From: an uncultured Lentisphaeria bacterium
Lineage (GTDB): Bacteria; Verrucomicrobiota; Lentisphaeria; Victivallales; UBA1829
Direction of reading: 5' to 3'
Assembly: GCA_949282305.1 (NCBI GenBank)
Contig: CASDPB010000027.1
Location: forward strand, 1 to 64,000
Length of the DNA stretch: 64,000 nucleotides
Shown: positions 54,574 to 63,797 of the stretch, one piece after another
Layout of the letters: the number at the start of each line of letters is the position of its first letter
Numbering within the stretch: the stretch's first letter is position 1
Notes under the pieces: generated by a model
Told to the model about the DNA's origin: nothing
Seen by the model: the letters and a program-made list of their open reading frames with translations, nothing else
Databases searched by the model: none
Translations under genes and position numbers: made by a program

Positions 54574-54658
54574 GGTGGGGTTCCCGAGCGGCCAAAGGGG
54601 GCAGACTGTAAATCTGCTGTCGCTGACTTCGATGGTTCGAATCCATCCCCCACCACCA
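54574..54658 (+). tRNA. tRNA-Tyr (anticodon GTA)
   Basis: Acceptor GGTGGGG pairs with CCCCACC; the anticodon arm GCAGA-CTGTAAA-TCTGC shows GTA; a long variable arm and the T arm GATGG-TTCGAAT-CCATC follow, and CCA is encoded (54656-54658). It is the last host-type gene before the phage-like segment, and tRNA 3' ends are common integration sites. Confidence 0.97.
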
Positions 54659-56685: not shown

Positions 56686-56970
56686 ATGGATTTGATCAAT
56701 AAGAACATTCTGGATGATTACAAGAAAAAGCATTCCGACAGCGTAAAGCCGCTTGCCAACTGGGAACGGCTGGTGCATTTGGCACAATGGAAAGCTCCGC
56801 AGGATATTAAAAACGCAATCAGAAGCGCGGATTTCCTTTCAGGGAACCGCGTCATATTCAATATTGGCGGCAATAAGCATAGGTTGCTTGTCGTTGTGGC
56901 ATATACAAAAGAGAAAATGATTGTCCGTTGGATTGGAACCCACGCGGAATACAGCAAAAAGAAGTTTTGA
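56686..56970 (+). CDS. higB: HigB-type mRNA interferase toxin
   Basis: The 94-residue protein matches the HigB family: VKPLANWERLVHLAQWKAPQ, NRVIFNIGGNKHRLLVVVAY and the end MIVRWIGTHAEYSK. Such RelE-fold toxins cut mRNA on the ribosome. The order is toxin first, antitoxin second, usual for higBA. It starts 21 bases after the -10 box and the antitoxin follows after 12 bases. Confidence 0.92.
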   Translation: MDLINKNILDDYKKKHSDSVKPLANWERLVHLAQWKAPQDIKNAIRSADFLSGNRVIFNIGGNKHRLLVVVAYTKEKMIVRWIGTHAEYSKKKF

Positions 56971-56982
56971 GGAGGTGCAAAC

Positions 56983-57351
56983 ATGGAAATCAGCATGATA
57001 AAGAATGACCAAGAATTAAAGGCAATGACGAAACGCCTGAATGCTTTTCTTGACGCACACGCGGAAGACTTGGAGCACTTGAGCCCGCAGGATGAAGAGG
57101 AAATGGAGCTTATGTGTCTTGTAATCAAGGCGTATGAGGATAAACGCTACCCACTGCCGGAAGTGAACCCGATAGACTTCATCAAATTCATGATGGAACA
57201 AAAGGGCTTGAAGATGAAAGACATTGCGCCGTGCTTCGGGACGCTCAGCCGCGCCTATGAGGTGTTAAGCGGCAAACGCAATCTTACCCTTGCCATGATC
57301 AAGAAACTCCGCGTTGTGCTCGAATGCCCGGCGGACGCACTGATAGCCTGA
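56983..57351 (+). CDS. higA: HigA-type antitoxin with HTH
   Basis: The N-terminal half is acidic and helical (HLSPQDEEEMELMCLVIK) and would bind the toxin. The C-terminal half is an HTH (IDFIKFMMEQKGLKMKDIAP; RAYEVLSGKRNLTLAMIKKL). GGAGGTG precedes the start. It probably represses the operon through the inverted repeat in the promoter. Confidence 0.9.
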   Translation: MEISMIKNDQELKAMTKRLNAFLDAHAEDLEHLSPQDEEEMELMCLVIKAYEDKRYPLPEVNPIDFIKFMMEQKGLKMKDIAPCFGTLSRAYEVLSGKRNLTLAMIKKLRVVLECPADALIA

Positions 57352-57478
57352 TGATACGCAGCCGGGATGAAAAACCATAAAAAGCATTTTTTTCAACTGT
57401 GGACGTTTCGTCCATACCTGCCAATTTGGCAGATATGAGTTGTGGGTGTTAGAACCATAACTGCTTTTCCCGCCTTCT

Positions 57479-57507
57479 GCAACTATGGGGGTAACACCCA
57501 TAGTTGC
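57479..57507. other. Strong hairpin, element copy A
   Basis: GCAACTATGGG pairs perfectly with CCCATAGTTGC around a 7-base loop containing GTAAC. It lies between the convergent first and second toxin-antitoxin pairs. A related hairpin lies at 59167-59195. It may terminate transcription, though there is no T tract. Confidence 0.7.
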
Positions 57508-57545
57508 CCCTGAAGCCATTTTTGGCTTGAGTGCCGCCACTTTTA

Positions 57546-57875
57546 TTATATGACTGCGGCTGCTGACTTGAAAGCCTTGATAAAGTCAAAGCGTTTTATC
57601 TTTCCTGTTTCCTGATCGTATTTGATACAATCCAATTCATAACGTGATTGAAGATTCAGCCAGAATTGCGCAGATGTTCCGAAAAATAAACCTAAACGCA
57701 TGGCTGTATCTGCCGTGATTGCCCGTTTTCCGTGAACAATTTCATTTATCCGGCGTGGAGGCACCCCCAAAGCCTTAGCAAGTGCATTCTGTGAAAGATT
57801 CAGCGGTTGTATAAATTCCGTGTTCAATATTTCGCCGGGATGAATCGGCTGCAAAAATTTTTCTTCTTTTGCCAT
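57546..57875 (-). CDS. HigA/VapI-family antitoxin
   Basis: The 109-residue protein begins in the family manner: FLQPIHPGEILNTEFIQPLN, then the HTH LSQNALAKALGVPPRRINEI and HGKRAITADTAMRLGLFFGT. It follows its toxin gene by 16 bases. It would neutralise the RelE-like toxin and repress the pair. Confidence 0.93.
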   Translation of the reverse strand: MAKEEKFLQPIHPGEILNTEFIQPLNLSQNALAKALGVPPRRINEIVHGKRAITADTAMRLGLFFGTSAQFWLNLQSRYELDCIKYDQETGKIKRFDFIKAFKSAAAVI

Positions 57876-57891
57876 GATTTCACCTCTTGTT

Positions 57892-58167
57892 TTAATGATA
57901 ATCCTCTATTTTTACGTTTTCCGCTCCGTCATTCCATGAAAACGTAATACGCCATTGGATATTAATTCTGATACTGAAAAAACCAGGTCTGCCGCTCAAT
58001 GCTTCAAATTTATTTCCGGGCGGTATTCTCAATTCCTCCGGCGCTATTGCGGCGTCAAGTGTCAATAACTTTCTTCTTGCGCTATCCTGAATATTTGCTG
58101 GCAGCTTTTTTGAAAGCTGCCGGTTAAATATCTTTTCCGCTTCTTTATCGCTAAAACTTTTAATCAT
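57892..58167 (-). CDS. RelE/HigB-like toxin
   Basis: Start 58167 (MIKSFSDKEAEKIFNRQLSK) has GGGAG upstream; a much longer frame upstream is a shadow. The 91 residues contain LDAAIAPEELRIPPGNKFEA, the spacing-conserved segment of HigB/RelE toxins, and end RINIQWRITFSWNDGAENVK. It is paired with the antitoxin that follows. Confidence 0.92.
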   Translation of the reverse strand: MIKSFSDKEAEKIFNRQLSKKLPANIQDSARRKLLTLDAAIAPEELRIPPGNKFEALSGRPGFFSIRINIQWRITFSWNDGAENVKIEDYH

Positions 58168-58324
58168 CTGCTTTTCTCCCTGTTTTAATATAACGCAACA
58201 CGTTATAAAATCAAGAAAAAAAACATTCCTGTATTGTATCTGCCATTTCAGCAGATACAAATCATCTGACAAAAAAATAAAGAAGACAAAGGCTATCGGG
58301 GCATCTGCCGGGAATAAGTCCGGC

Positions 58325-58684
58325 TTACAAAAGGGTAACAGCGACTTTCTTCCCGCAAGCCGCCGCATATCTTGATAATGTTCTGAAAGTGATGTTCTTC
58401 CGCCCCCGCTCCAAAGCGGCAATATAGGTTTGATTTGTTCCGAGACGTTCGGCAAGTTCCTTTTGTGTAAGTCCTGCCTCATGACGCGCTTTATACAGCG
58501 CTTCAACGGCTGCCATTCTTGCAAACATCGCCGCAACTTCCTCCGCGTTTGCAGGATCGTTGAAATAAGCGTCCCGTTCCGCTTCGTCGTCGCTGATTCT
58601 GCCCGCTTTTATATCTTCGGCAATTTGTGCGACTTCTGCGGCAATCTGTTCATCCGTCAAATATTCGGCGTGGTCTTTACTCAT
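58325..58684 (-). CDS. XRE-type antitoxin
   Basis: The first 65 residues are acidic and helical (SDDEAERDAYFNDPANAEEV); the rest is a Cro/CI HTH (ARHEAGLTQKELAERLGTNQ, TYIAALERGRKNITFRTLSR). Its ATG overlaps the toxin TGA (ATGA). Third antitoxin in the island. Confidence 0.9.
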   Translation of the reverse strand: MSKDHAEYLTDEQIAAEVAQIAEDIKAGRISDDEAERDAYFNDPANAEEVAAMFARMAAVEALYKARHEAGLTQKELAERLGTNQTYIAALERGRKNITFRTLSRYAAACGKKVAVTLL

Positions 58685-59031
58685 TTTACTAATCCTCCCT
58701 GTATAAGCTGTTTTAATACCTTTCGGGCTTGTTTTTTCTCTTTTTCCGGTATGGATTGCGTTTTCTTCACATAGCCATGAATACCGAAAATAAGGTTATC
58801 TATCCCGTAAACGTAAAAAATGCGAATGTTTGCCGCCTGAATCACGCGAATTGCAAAGAGATTTTTATCATCCAGCTTTTCCCCGTATGGCATCTCTAAA
58901 ACGCCCGTCATTTCCAGCTTGCATATAATCCCGTTCAACTCCTGTTTTGCGTCTCCCGACTGGTTGCGCATGAAGTCTTTTACTGCCTGCATCATGCGAA
59001 AATGCTTTTTCTTGTCTATCGGCTGTTTCAT
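58681..59031 (-). CDS. RelE-superfamily toxin, phage Gp49-like
   Basis: The 116-residue protein fits the phage-derived Gp49-like/HigB group: KLEMTGVLEMPYGEKLDDKN, LFAIRVIQAANIRIFYVYG and IHGYVKKTQSIPEKEKKQA. An AAGGGA site precedes the start. Coupled to the XRE antitoxin by a 4-base overlap. Confidence 0.9.
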   Translation of the reverse strand: MKQPIDKKKHFRMMQAVKDFMRNQSGDAKQELNGIICKLEMTGVLEMPYGEKLDDKNLFAIRVIQAANIRIFYVYGIDNLIFGIHGYVKKTQSIPEKEKKQARKVLKQLIQGGLVK

Positions 59032-60239: not shown

Positions 60240-62732
60240 TCATACGAAAGCAAGGTCGTTTCCGGGAATTCCCTTCCTTATCGCCTTCACATCGCTTCTG
60301 ATTTGCTTTGTATTGGCAACTTCATTTTTCAGCTGAATTACAGCATCTTTCAGCTGCATCATGACAGCTTGTATATTCACATTCCCTCCGGAGCTTCTAA
60401 CGTTGGAAACACCGGTAGAGATGTTGCCGGTAACCGGATTCCCCGTTACACCTGTTCCCCCAGGATTTCTCCCTGGAGAAAGCAGATTATTTCCCGCTTC
60501 CTTTACGCCGGCTGCCACGCCGTTAATAGCATCCGCAAGACCGTTTCCGCTTCTTGTAATGACGTTTTCCGCGTCCGTTGACGGGCTGGTAAAATATACC
60601 CTGCTTTCCAGCTTCGCCGCTTCCATGCTTCCATACTCCACGGCTTCTGCCGCTGTTACAAACCCTTTTCCGGCATCTTTAACGGAGGTTGCAACTCTGC
60701 TGATTGATTCCGCAAGCTCTTTTCCGCTGTTCTGCACGTCGGCATTGCTTCCCGGCTGCCTGTTCCTGACCTTGTTCCGCAAGTCTTCATAATAGGCGGT
60801 GTTCTCGTTCAATCTGCGCCGCCTGTAATCGGCATCCGTCCAAGCTCTGCCGTTTCCTGAAGCAAGTTCCGGAAGGGGAGTTGCTCCAATTTCTTTCAAC
60901 GTCTTCGGCAGATTCTTTCCAACTTCTCCGAATCTCCGCGCCAGATTGTCCCCAAGCTCCCCCGCGACTTTCTTTGTATTTTCCCAAACGGGCTTGAAGC
61001 CGTCCGCCGCCGCTGCCGCAACTCTCTGATTGTGCGCTGCGATTTCGTTAACAATATCCTGTCCGAATGCCTTTGCATTTGCGCTGAACTCGAACCCGTC
61101 CCAGTTTTCCTTGACCTTTTCGGCGGTTTCCGCTATCGCCGTTGTATAGTCGTTCAGCACTCCGCCGATTGCTTCCGTAAAAGATTTCTTCCCTGTAATC
61201 AGGCTCCAGAAGTTGGAGCCAAGAGAAGCCGCCATTGTGCCGATGTTTTTGATTGAGGCTGCGAATAAATCCCAAATGCTGGCCAGCGTTCTTTTTCCGA
61301 TTTCAAACATATCGGAAAAAATTCCGCGCCAGTTCCGCCCGAATGAAGCAAGGATATTTCCCGCCGCCGTGAATGCCGATTGCCATGATGTCGTTATCAG
61401 GTTTCCGAATCCGGTAACGATCAAACGCAGATTTTCAAATCCGCCGTTGACAAGCGTTTCTGCGGAATCCATAACCGCACGCGGGATAAACAGAAAGAAG
61501 TCGAGAATATCCGTTCCGATCGCCGTTGCAACGCTTCCGAAGTTCTCAACCAGCGGCACCATGTTGTTAAACGCCCATTTCCCTATTGAAACAACGTTTT
61601 TGATTCCCGCGCCGATCCATGAAAAGACAGGTTCAAGGTAAACGCCTGTCTGTGAAGCGACTTCCGCGATATTCAAGCCTAGAATCTGAATGTCCTTCCC
61701 CCATTGCGCCCCGTTTGCTTTCAGGGTGTCGGAAAAACGTTTTACAGCTCCGGCAAGCTGATTAATCAGGGGGCTTGTCTGTATCACGGAGTCAATAAAC
61801 GCGCCGATGTTGATTTTCAGATCAAGCAGCCGGTTTCCAAGCAACCGGGACTGATTGGCTATTGAATCCTGATTTCTGGCAAAATCCCCAAGCACATGCG
61901 CTTTCTGCTGATAGATCGTAGCGGCTGCCGCAATTGCTTTTGCTTCCTGCGCGGTTGAAGCCTTGAACGTTCTTCCAAGTCCCGCAATATAAACGCCTGT
62001 ATCCTGCGCCTGTTTTGCAAGATTTCTGAATTCCGGGGTATCGGTTTTGATTGCAACGCCAAGCGATTTCGCCTGTTCCGTTTCCCCAAGCATGGCTTTA
62101 GTCAATGCAAACGTTGCCTGCTCCGCTCCTCCGCTGTAATTGGTGAAGCTGGCAATATCGGAACCCATCTTCGCAATCCCTGCGGATAATGCGACTACAT
62201 CGCCGCTTGCCATTCCGAACCCTTTCAGCAAGTCCCCCGTCTGCGCCATCATCCGCGTTGCGGCAAGTTCCGACTGTCCGAAATTGTTTACCAAATCCGC
62301 TACACCGGCTTCTGCTTCCTTGCTTACATCGGAAAAGACAATACCGAATTTCTGCGTCTCCTCCTGCATGTCGGAAAAGGCTTTTACTGCATTGTATGCG
62401 CCCTTCGTGACGGCGGAAACAGTAAAGCCCCCCGCAAGCGCCGCCGTTGCGCCTTTGGCGAATCGGGATAAACCGCCAAGTGTTCCGTTTATCTGGTTCA
62501 AGCTGCGCTGCGCTCTTTCCGCTCCCTTGACTCTTACCGGAACAGTTGCACCCTGAAGCCGTTTAAGTCTTTTTTCGAATGCGTCAAGCTGCTTCTTCGC
62601 GTCTTCGCCTATGGTGATTTTCGGATTAAGCGCAGTAAGTCCCTTCAAACGCTTATGGAATGCGTCAAGCTGCTTCTTCGCGTTTGCCGCCTTCACCTCG
62701 ATTGCCAATGTTACAATATCTGTTTCTGCCAT
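60240..62732 (-). CDS. Phage tail tape measure protein
   Basis: The 830-residue protein has an N-terminal helical repeat pair (AKKQLDAFHKRLKGL, AKKQLDAFEKRLKRL; the DNA keeps a 25-base direct repeat at 62578-62602 and 62659-62683), then the conserved tape-measure block (SDMQEETQKFGIVFSDVSKE, DLVNNFGQSELAATRMMAQT, AKSLGVAIKTDTPEFRNLAK), and a long middle with hydrophobic stretches. It sets tail length and helps DNA entry. Start 62732 has AAAGG at 7 bases; the longer frame is unlikely. Unusually, no tail genes follow it, only the structured interval. Confidence 0.93.
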   Translation of the reverse strand: MAETDIVTLAIEVKAANAKKQLDAFHKRLKGLTALNPKITIGEDAKKQLDAFEKRLKRLQGATVPVRVKGAERAQRSLNQINGTLGGLSRFAKGATAALAGGFTVSAVTKGAYNAVKAFSDMQEETQKFGIVFSDVSKEAEAGVADLVNNFGQSELAATRMMAQTGDLLKGFGMASGDVVALSAGIAKMGSDIASFTNYSGGAEQATFALTKAMLGETEQAKSLGVAIKTDTPEFRNLAKQAQDTGVYIAGLGRTFKASTAQEAKAIAAAATIYQQKAHVLGDFARNQDSIANQSRLLGNRLLDLKINIGAFIDSVIQTSPLINQLAGAVKRFSDTLKANGAQWGKDIQILGLNIAEVASQTGVYLEPVFSWIGAGIKNVVSIGKWAFNNMVPLVENFGSVATAIGTDILDFFLFIPRAVMDSAETLVNGGFENLRLIVTGFGNLITTSWQSAFTAAGNILASFGRNWRGIFSDMFEIGKRTLASIWDLFAASIKNIGTMAASLGSNFWSLITGKKSFTEAIGGVLNDYTTAIAETAEKVKENWDGFEFSANAKAFGQDIVNEIAAHNQRVAAAAADGFKPVWENTKKVAGELGDNLARRFGEVGKNLPKTLKEIGATPLPELASGNGRAWTDADYRRRRLNENTAYYEDLRNKVRNRQPGSNADVQNSGKELAESISRVATSVKDAGKGFVTAAEAVEYGSMEAAKLESRVYFTSPSTDAENVITRSGNGLADAINGVAAGVKEAGNNLLSPGRNPGGTGVTGNPVTGNISTGVSNVRSSGGNVNIQAVMMQLKDAVIQLKNEVANTKQIRSDVKAIRKGIPGNDLAFV

Positions 62733-62766: not shown

Positions 62767-63593
62767 TCAACTTGCAGCATCCTTGAGAATCCTGTTTGCA
62801 AGGTTTGCCTTGAACCTCATCCCTTCCGGAGATTGCAGCCAGTCCCCGCCCGCCGGCGCGTTCAGGTATTCGCCGCCGCTCCCGGAGGAAAGCCACTTTT
62901 CACCGTCTGGACTCGAAAGCCATTTCCGCCCGTCATCACTTGCAAGCCATTGATAATAAGCATGTTTTTGTTTCTCCCGCGCATCCGGCGTCATCAGTCG
63001 GCAGTCGTTCAGGTTGATTTGTTCAGCCTTGATTCCAAGCCCGGCTGATATGGCTGTTAAAAGCCTTACCGTTTCCATTGCGTAGAGCTCCCAACGCTCC
63101 GGCGGCAATTCCCCGTCCTGACAGGCTCTATCGTATGCAATCCATGCGTGAAGCTCCGGGAGCGGTATTTGTGCGGCATCCGCAAGAGAGATTCCCCGAT
63201 TCAGGGCAAGCCGGAAAAGAGCCTGCCCCGTCGGGGTGGTTATTTTTTTTCGGTGAAAGCCTCCGACGCTTCCCCGATTTTTGCGGCTTCTCCGGTCAGC
63301 GTATTGATCTCGCTGATAAGCCGTTCAGCGACGCCGGGCATTTTCCGGTAAAGAATCGCGGCGTTTTTCTCATCCAATGCAGGAGCAACAACACCTTTTC
63401 GGAGAATAAGAGCCGTTTTGCTTTTCAAGTTTATCGCCCCTGCGACTTCCAGCGATTCTTCCCCGTCCAGCCCCCGGACTTCAAAAACTCCGATTTCCGG
63501 AATTTCAATCTTCTTCTGCGGCATTCGGACAGCGAGGCATTTTTCCATAAGTGTTTCAAGGTTCAGTGTTTCGGTTGTGTGTTCGTTGTTCAT
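62767..63593 (-). CDS. Tail assembly chaperone, -1 frameshift product (gpGT-type)
   Basis: The long product is made by translating the 117-residue frame (63593 to about 63243) and slipping back one base at A AAA AAA. The zero frame reads GAA AAA AAA TAA; the -1 frame continues ATA ACC ACC CCG and stays open for about 160 codons to 62767. The extension contains LFRLALNRGISLADAAQIPL and LHAWIAYDRACQDGE, resembling the DUF4035-type domain of such extensions, and then a W-L-x-S-x-x-G repeat (WLASDDGRKWLSSPDGEKWL). As in lambda G/GT, the fused form would bind the tape-measure protein, whose gene follows after 34 bases. Confidence 0.85.
63240..63593 (-). CDS. Tail assembly chaperone, short form (gpG-type)
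   Basis: The 117-residue product begins MNNEHTTETLNLETLMEKCL and includes IEIPEIGVFEVRGLDGEESL. It ends TEKK directly at the slippery site, with TAA next. An AAAGGA site lies 10 bases before the start. Position just before the tape-measure gene and the overlapping -1 frame identify it as the short tail chaperone although its own sequence is not strongly diagnostic. Confidence 0.82.
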   Translation of the reverse strand: MNNEHTTETLNLETLMEKCLAVRMPQKKIEIPEIGVFEVRGLDGEESLEVAGAINLKSKTALILRKGVVAPALDEKNAAILYRKMPGVAERLISEINTLTGEAAKIGEASEAFTEKK

Positions 63594-63608: not shown

Positions 63609-63797
63609 TCAATCATTTTCAATTTTGAATGTTAAAACATCTTCGGAATAAACGATTTCAGGTTCCGCGCTGAAATCAAATTTCCCGGTTGTAGTGTCCA
63701 TCGGGTAAAACTCACGCCGGATAAGTTTTTGGGGCTTATGCGGTGTTTTCCTTGCTTTTGCAAAGACGCGCTCAAGACGTCTTATCTTGTTCTGCAT
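63609..63797 (-). CDS. Small phage protein of unknown function
   Basis: Start 63797 (MQNKIRRLERVFAKARKTPH) has AAAGGA at 7 bases; a longer frame starts further up but without support. The 62 residues begin strongly basic and end acidic (EPEIVYSEDVLTFKIEND). It overlaps the end of the next upstream gene by 26 bases and precedes the tail chaperone by 15. No family recognised. Confidence 0.6.
   Translation of the reverse strand: MQNKIRRLERVFAKARKTPHKPQKLIRREFYPMDTTTGKFDFSAEPEIVYSEDVLTFKIEND

Follow-up and report, generated by a model that had tools for sequence, protein, structure and literature searches.

In the window, the whole 64,000-nucleotide stretch of DNA analysed here, two overlapping frames on the minus strand very probably form a tail assembly chaperone gene of the lambda/HK97 type that uses programmed -1 ribosomal frameshifting, as judged from its sequence and from that of its relatives. 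A slippery heptamer followed by an open -1 frame proves little by itself, because a mechanical scan of the window returned about 30 coincidences of an open reading frame, a heptamer, and an open -1 frame. What stands above chance is the combination of homology on both sides of the junction, a downstream hairpin, a suitably spaced GGAGG, and an A run that is kept in relatives. The kind of system is already well known, and the genomic setting of this member is odd.

Gene structure and slip site

The zero frame (63593..63240, minus strand) encodes a G-like protein of 117 aa, which starts at ATG 63593, 3' of an AAGGA at 63608-63604 (minus), and ends in ...AFTEKK at TAA 63242-63240 (minus). Directly before this stop lies a run of eight A's (63250-63243, minus), read GAA AAA AAA TAA after the codon ACC, and within the run the slippery heptamer A_AAA_AAA is in phase with the zero frame at 63249-63243 (minus). 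In the -1 frame no stop interrupts the stretch between TGA 63327-63325 and TGA 62769-62767, which gives a -1 extension (63243..62767, minus) of 158 codons past the slip and a predicted GT fusion of 275 aa. Between 63327 and the slip, reading of the -1 frame found no ATG, GTG, TTG, CTG, or ATT, and the earliest ATG, GTG, or TTG in the frame is TTG 63108. The earlier note had described the heptamer, the adjoining zero-frame stop, about 160 open -1 codons, and the first start at TTG 63108; these features are as it described them, apart from the heptamer's position, which it gave one base off, at 63244-63250.

Homology of the G and T parts

A recognisable tail-chaperone extension in the -1 frame had also been claimed, and the profiles bear this out: the extension is a T domain of the HK97 gp14 type that is homologous from its first -1 codon. 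PHROG 337 ('tail protein') matches the extension at E 2.5e-4, and hhalign aligns T over 87 columns, at E 2.4e-7, with a profile built from HK97 gp14 and Hendrixvirinae T domains. In a tblastn search against phages, HK97 gp14 aligns from fusion residue 117, which is the junction, at weak single-sequence E values of 0.4-6, and the database record of gp14 has it translated by -1 frameshift. T domains share the conserved motif LALxxGxxL...ELxxWIxYDR, and translation from TTG 63108 would delete its LALxxGxxL...ELxxW core. At the C-terminus of the extension (window 62767-62930) there is a W-L-x-S/x-G repeat-like tail with a repeat of about 9-12 residues, G-x-x-W/Y-L-x-S/A (GRKWLSS, GEKWLSS, GEYLNA, GDWLQS), which is not found in HK97-type T domains.

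The window G resembles the G open reading frame 5' of the tape measure in the relative G041 (blastp E 2e-5), and no other related G was found. Profile scans gave no Pfam or PHROG match for G, neither Pfam nor NCBIfam contains a G/GT model, and similarity between G and HK97 gp13 was undetectable by hhalign (probability 0.2%). An AlphaFold model of G was too poor for use (pLDDT 51), which made a fold search of the PDB with it meaningless; a match to the solved structure 2ob9, obtained with an alignment that includes phage sequences, was not counted for the window G because the phage rows drive it.

The gene that follows T (62732..60240, minus; 830 aa) encodes a tape-measure protein, as the earlier note had supposed, with a match to PHROG 4070 at E 3e-6 and tblastn matches as good as E 2e-11 to phage proteins, several of which are annotated as tape measure. 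Directly 5' of G, at the place expected for the major tail protein gene, is a 62-aa open reading frame of no family (63797..63609, minus); no major tail protein gene was recognised 5' of G, and this small frame and a DUF5681-like gene are there instead. By our own reading of the open reading frames, a tail-tube-like gene lies upstream in the relatives G193, G066, G081, and G172. A by-eye search for tail-gene debris in the 0.7 kb past the window tape measure found only short, stop-ridden frames.

The surroundings of this cassette vary among relatives. At three loci (L023, L022, and L021) non-structural cargo genes lie between chaperone and tape measure, comparable to the HK97 gp15 moron, and G036 has its tape measure on the other strand, with flanking genes present as inverted near-copies (1247482 and 1256585). 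The genome that carries the window also has, on another contig (G000 contig 108, 28438-28881), a fragment of 147 aa that is related to the N-terminal part of the tape measure, adjoins a zinc-ribbon/TM2-like gene, and is likely a prophage remnant.

Candidate stimulators and proposed mechanism

Two classical stimulators that were absent from the earlier note flank the heptamer. A candidate stimulator, the internal Shine-Dalgarno-like element GGAGG (63264-63260, minus), precedes the heptamer by 10 nt, a spacing that falls in the stimulatory interval used by Sharma et al. (PMC4066793). The chance of a GGAGG at such a spacing is 1.3%, and that of any Shine-Dalgarno-like motif is 16%; a pattern search of the assembly for the host 16S 3' end, with its anti-Shine-Dalgarno sequence, gave no match. 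On the other side, a hairpin of 17 bp with one 2-nt bulge and a 7-nt loop (63236-63194, minus) begins 6 nt 3' of the heptamer, and stimulatory structures are placed 5-8 nt downstream of the slip site (PMC4066793). The hairpin, a candidate mRNA stimulator, has a free energy of -30.4 kcal/mol (z -4.9; 0 of 200 shuffles better), is the most stable downstream fold among the 79 A6N sites of the window, and was equalled in stability by 0 of 3000 random 55-mers. With a Shine-Dalgarno-like element, an A8 run, an immediate stop, a 6-nt spacer, and a strong hairpin, the signal is unusually complete.

In the mechanism that we propose, most ribosomes would end at TAA 63242-63240 and release the 117-aa G. 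A minority would pause, held back by pairing of GGAGG to the 3' end of the 16S rRNA and by a hairpin that is hard to unwind, and the two tRNA-Lys on A_AAA_AAA would then slip back one base, so that translation of 158 more codons would yield the 275-aa GT. Frameshift efficiency is usually a few per cent. In measurements by Antonov et al., two chaperone cassettes of the HK97-like type shifted at 6-7%, and a cassette with A_AAA_AAA from another gene family shifted at 10% (PMC3711429). By analogy with lambda, where G binds the tape measure and T recruits the tail-tube subunit (PMC5009743), G and GT would coat the product of the adjacent tape-measure gene, and the major tail protein would be recruited by the T part. 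For the window site, the occurrence and efficiency of frameshifting and the roles of the proteins are what we infer, and the lambda roles are carried over to this cassette because of the T homology and the gene order.

Junctions in related loci

Relatives were found via the tape measure, via distant T alignments, and by searching 198 genomes of the class with a profile of the T domain; junctions were read in loci of the class, including the window, as well as in loci from IMG/VR and from Serratia phages. None of the 198 class genomes, IMG/VR, or the GTDB contig scans yielded a close relative of the fusion. Conservation of the A run and of the frame offset in related prophages had been suggested as a check on the reading, and both are conserved: a run of seven to nine A's with a -1 offset is present at the junction in ten other prophage or viral-contig loci, nine from within the class, which brings the comparative set to eleven loci. 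The junction is A7-TAG in G193, A7-C-TGA in G041 and G055, A8-C-TGA in G081, and A9-T-TAA in G005, with the stop in each case abutting the run or one base further on; G142 has A8, and G066, G172, G043, and the IMG/VR locus L055 have A9, although L055 is near-identical to G172 here and so does not count as an independent case. In OS31-like phages the junction carries A_AAA_AAG.

Other relatives are arranged differently. In G085 (L069), a single-contig genome, a related chaperone pair has an A9 run and a +1 (or -2) offset, and in G036 (L063), G193 contig 90 (L064), and G166 (L067) G and T are fused in one frame, where the long form needs no frameshift. G062 has no G open reading frame overlapping T in the expected way, and the weak matches G038, G092, and G166-like are fragments or have unreadable junctions.

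Alternative explanations

The fusion could also arise by transcriptional slippage, in which the polymerase would add an A within the A8 run, so that part of the mRNA would carry A9 and ordinary translation would give the long product. We think this improbable for the window, even though polymerase slippage, efficient at nine A's or T's (PMC5009743), could also reach its run of eight, and even though A9 runs occur without a downstream hairpin in G066, G172, and G043 and with the +1/-2 offset in G085. The window site has GGAGG at ribosomal spacing and a hairpin 3' of the run, a structure still unmade while the polymerase sits on the run, and in G193, G041, and G055 only A7 is kept. Strong hairpins (z -5.5 to -2.6) accompany the five A7-A8 sites at which a stop follows the run at once or after one base, whereas most A9 sites have no strong hairpin (z about 0; G005 has -2.2), a contrast that is small and post hoc; in G142, an A8 site, there is a strong Shine-Dalgarno-like stretch instead of a hairpin. 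This pattern suggests that the A9 sites depend on the homopolymer itself, via slippage of the ribosome or of the polymerase, and related phages with A9 may have swapped ribosomal frameshifting for transcriptional slippage.

Programmed frameshifting also has to be set against decay or error, that is, one true or ancestral open reading frame broken by loss of one A in a pseudogene or in the assembly. The break would fall in a homopolymer run, decay is plausible because the element lacks most structural genes, and three homologues (G036, G193 contig 90, and G166) do encode G and T as one open reading frame; but the identical offset recurs at A7, A8, or A9 in ten other loci, and in the window the stimulators are intact and both frames are open. 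We regard this explanation as highly unlikely, and the relatives largely refute it. That T is made alone, from an internal start or by re-initiation past the TAA, seems barely conceivable. TTG 63108 exists, and in G041 an ATG overlaps the zero-frame stop, but the window has no start between TGA 63327 and TTG 63108, a start at that TTG loses the conserved core, and G193, G066, G081, and G005 also have no start ahead of the conserved region. The earlier note had named homologues whose second frame has its own start and ribosome-binding site as evidence that would count against frameshifting, and beyond the overlapping ATG of G041 there was no clear case among the homologues.

Comparison with known systems

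HK97 gp13/gp14 and the cassette of Serratia phage OS31 resemble the window in having a short protein with a -1 extension, a slip site where the first open reading frame ends, a T domain that begins at the junction and carries the same motif, and a tape measure downstream. The slip sites differ, with A8, an immediate stop, and a strong hairpin in the window compared with GGGAAAAG in HK97 and A_AAA_AAG in phages of the OS31 kind, with no hairpin of that sort. The window further differs from HK97 in a G that cannot be aligned to gp13, in its 158-codon T with a repeat-like tail, and in having no major tail gene upstream. The slip sequence of lambda G/GT is GGGAAAG, unlike the A_AAA_AAA of the window. 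Gene order and -1 logic are shared with lambda (PMC5009743), but lambda is a complete phage and the window element is not; the lambda G/GT arrangement that the earlier note had proposed is supported, with the correction that the host element has no complete tail module. In E. coli dnaX, whose protein is unrelated to G/GT, the shift shortens the product, whereas in the window it would lengthen it. The signals of dnaX and of the IS911 type are nevertheless like that of the window in joining an A-rich heptamer to an upstream Shine-Dalgarno-like element and a downstream stem-loop (PMC4066793).

The tRNA-Tyr island

The cassette lies in an integrated element of about 14.7 kb. A tRNA-Tyr gene (54574-54658, plus) marks its left end (att), and a 41-bp exact repeat of the tRNA 3' end is found past the window at contig 69299-69339, so that the element spans window 54574 to position 69339 of the contig (C27; L003 11339). 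Its genes include an integrase, an excisionase-like gene, DUF6291, RusA, the DUF5681-like gene, the chaperone, the tape measure, and toxin-antitoxin-like genes; capsid, portal, large terminase, and major tail genes were not recognised in it by scans that did not cover every small open reading frame. The left end of the island (window 56686-59031) has three consecutive toxin-antitoxin-like gene pairs, among them a HigA family antitoxin (57546-57875) with an NCBIfam match.

A small integrated element with an integrase and att sites and without a recognised capsid or large terminase answers to the description of a phage satellite, but so does a deleted prophage, and the latter is the simpler reading of this element. 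We consider it unlikely that the island is a working phage satellite whose only structural equipment is a tail-length cassette, composed of G/GT, the tape measure, and the DUF5681-like gene, with which it would redirect the tail length or assembly of a helper while the -1 signal sets the chaperone ratio. Under such a satellite reading, the DUF5681-like gene might act like a small terminase. Relatives of the integrase and excisionase recur in other small capsid-less islands whose lists of open reading frames were read, and the tail cassette is absent from the islands with these relatives; the contigs that carry the two nearest integrase relatives are short. At four loci (L048, L049, L050, and L052) integrases 42-57% identical lie in small islands in which structural genes were not seen, with a backbone of integrase, an open reading frame of about 270-340 aa, an excisionase of the LQPFIPELSP type, and often a putative primase/helicase of 720-824 aa. 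A literature search found no paper joining satellite, tail chaperone, and tape measure.

Implications

If programmed -1 frameshifting takes place at this site, the known range of the tail-chaperone frameshift would widen to prophages of a bacterial class that has had little study. Ordinary gene prediction would overlook GT here or call a false gene from TTG 63108. The presence of the cassette in a capsid-less element also poses the question of whether a satellite-like island can carry its own tail-length control.
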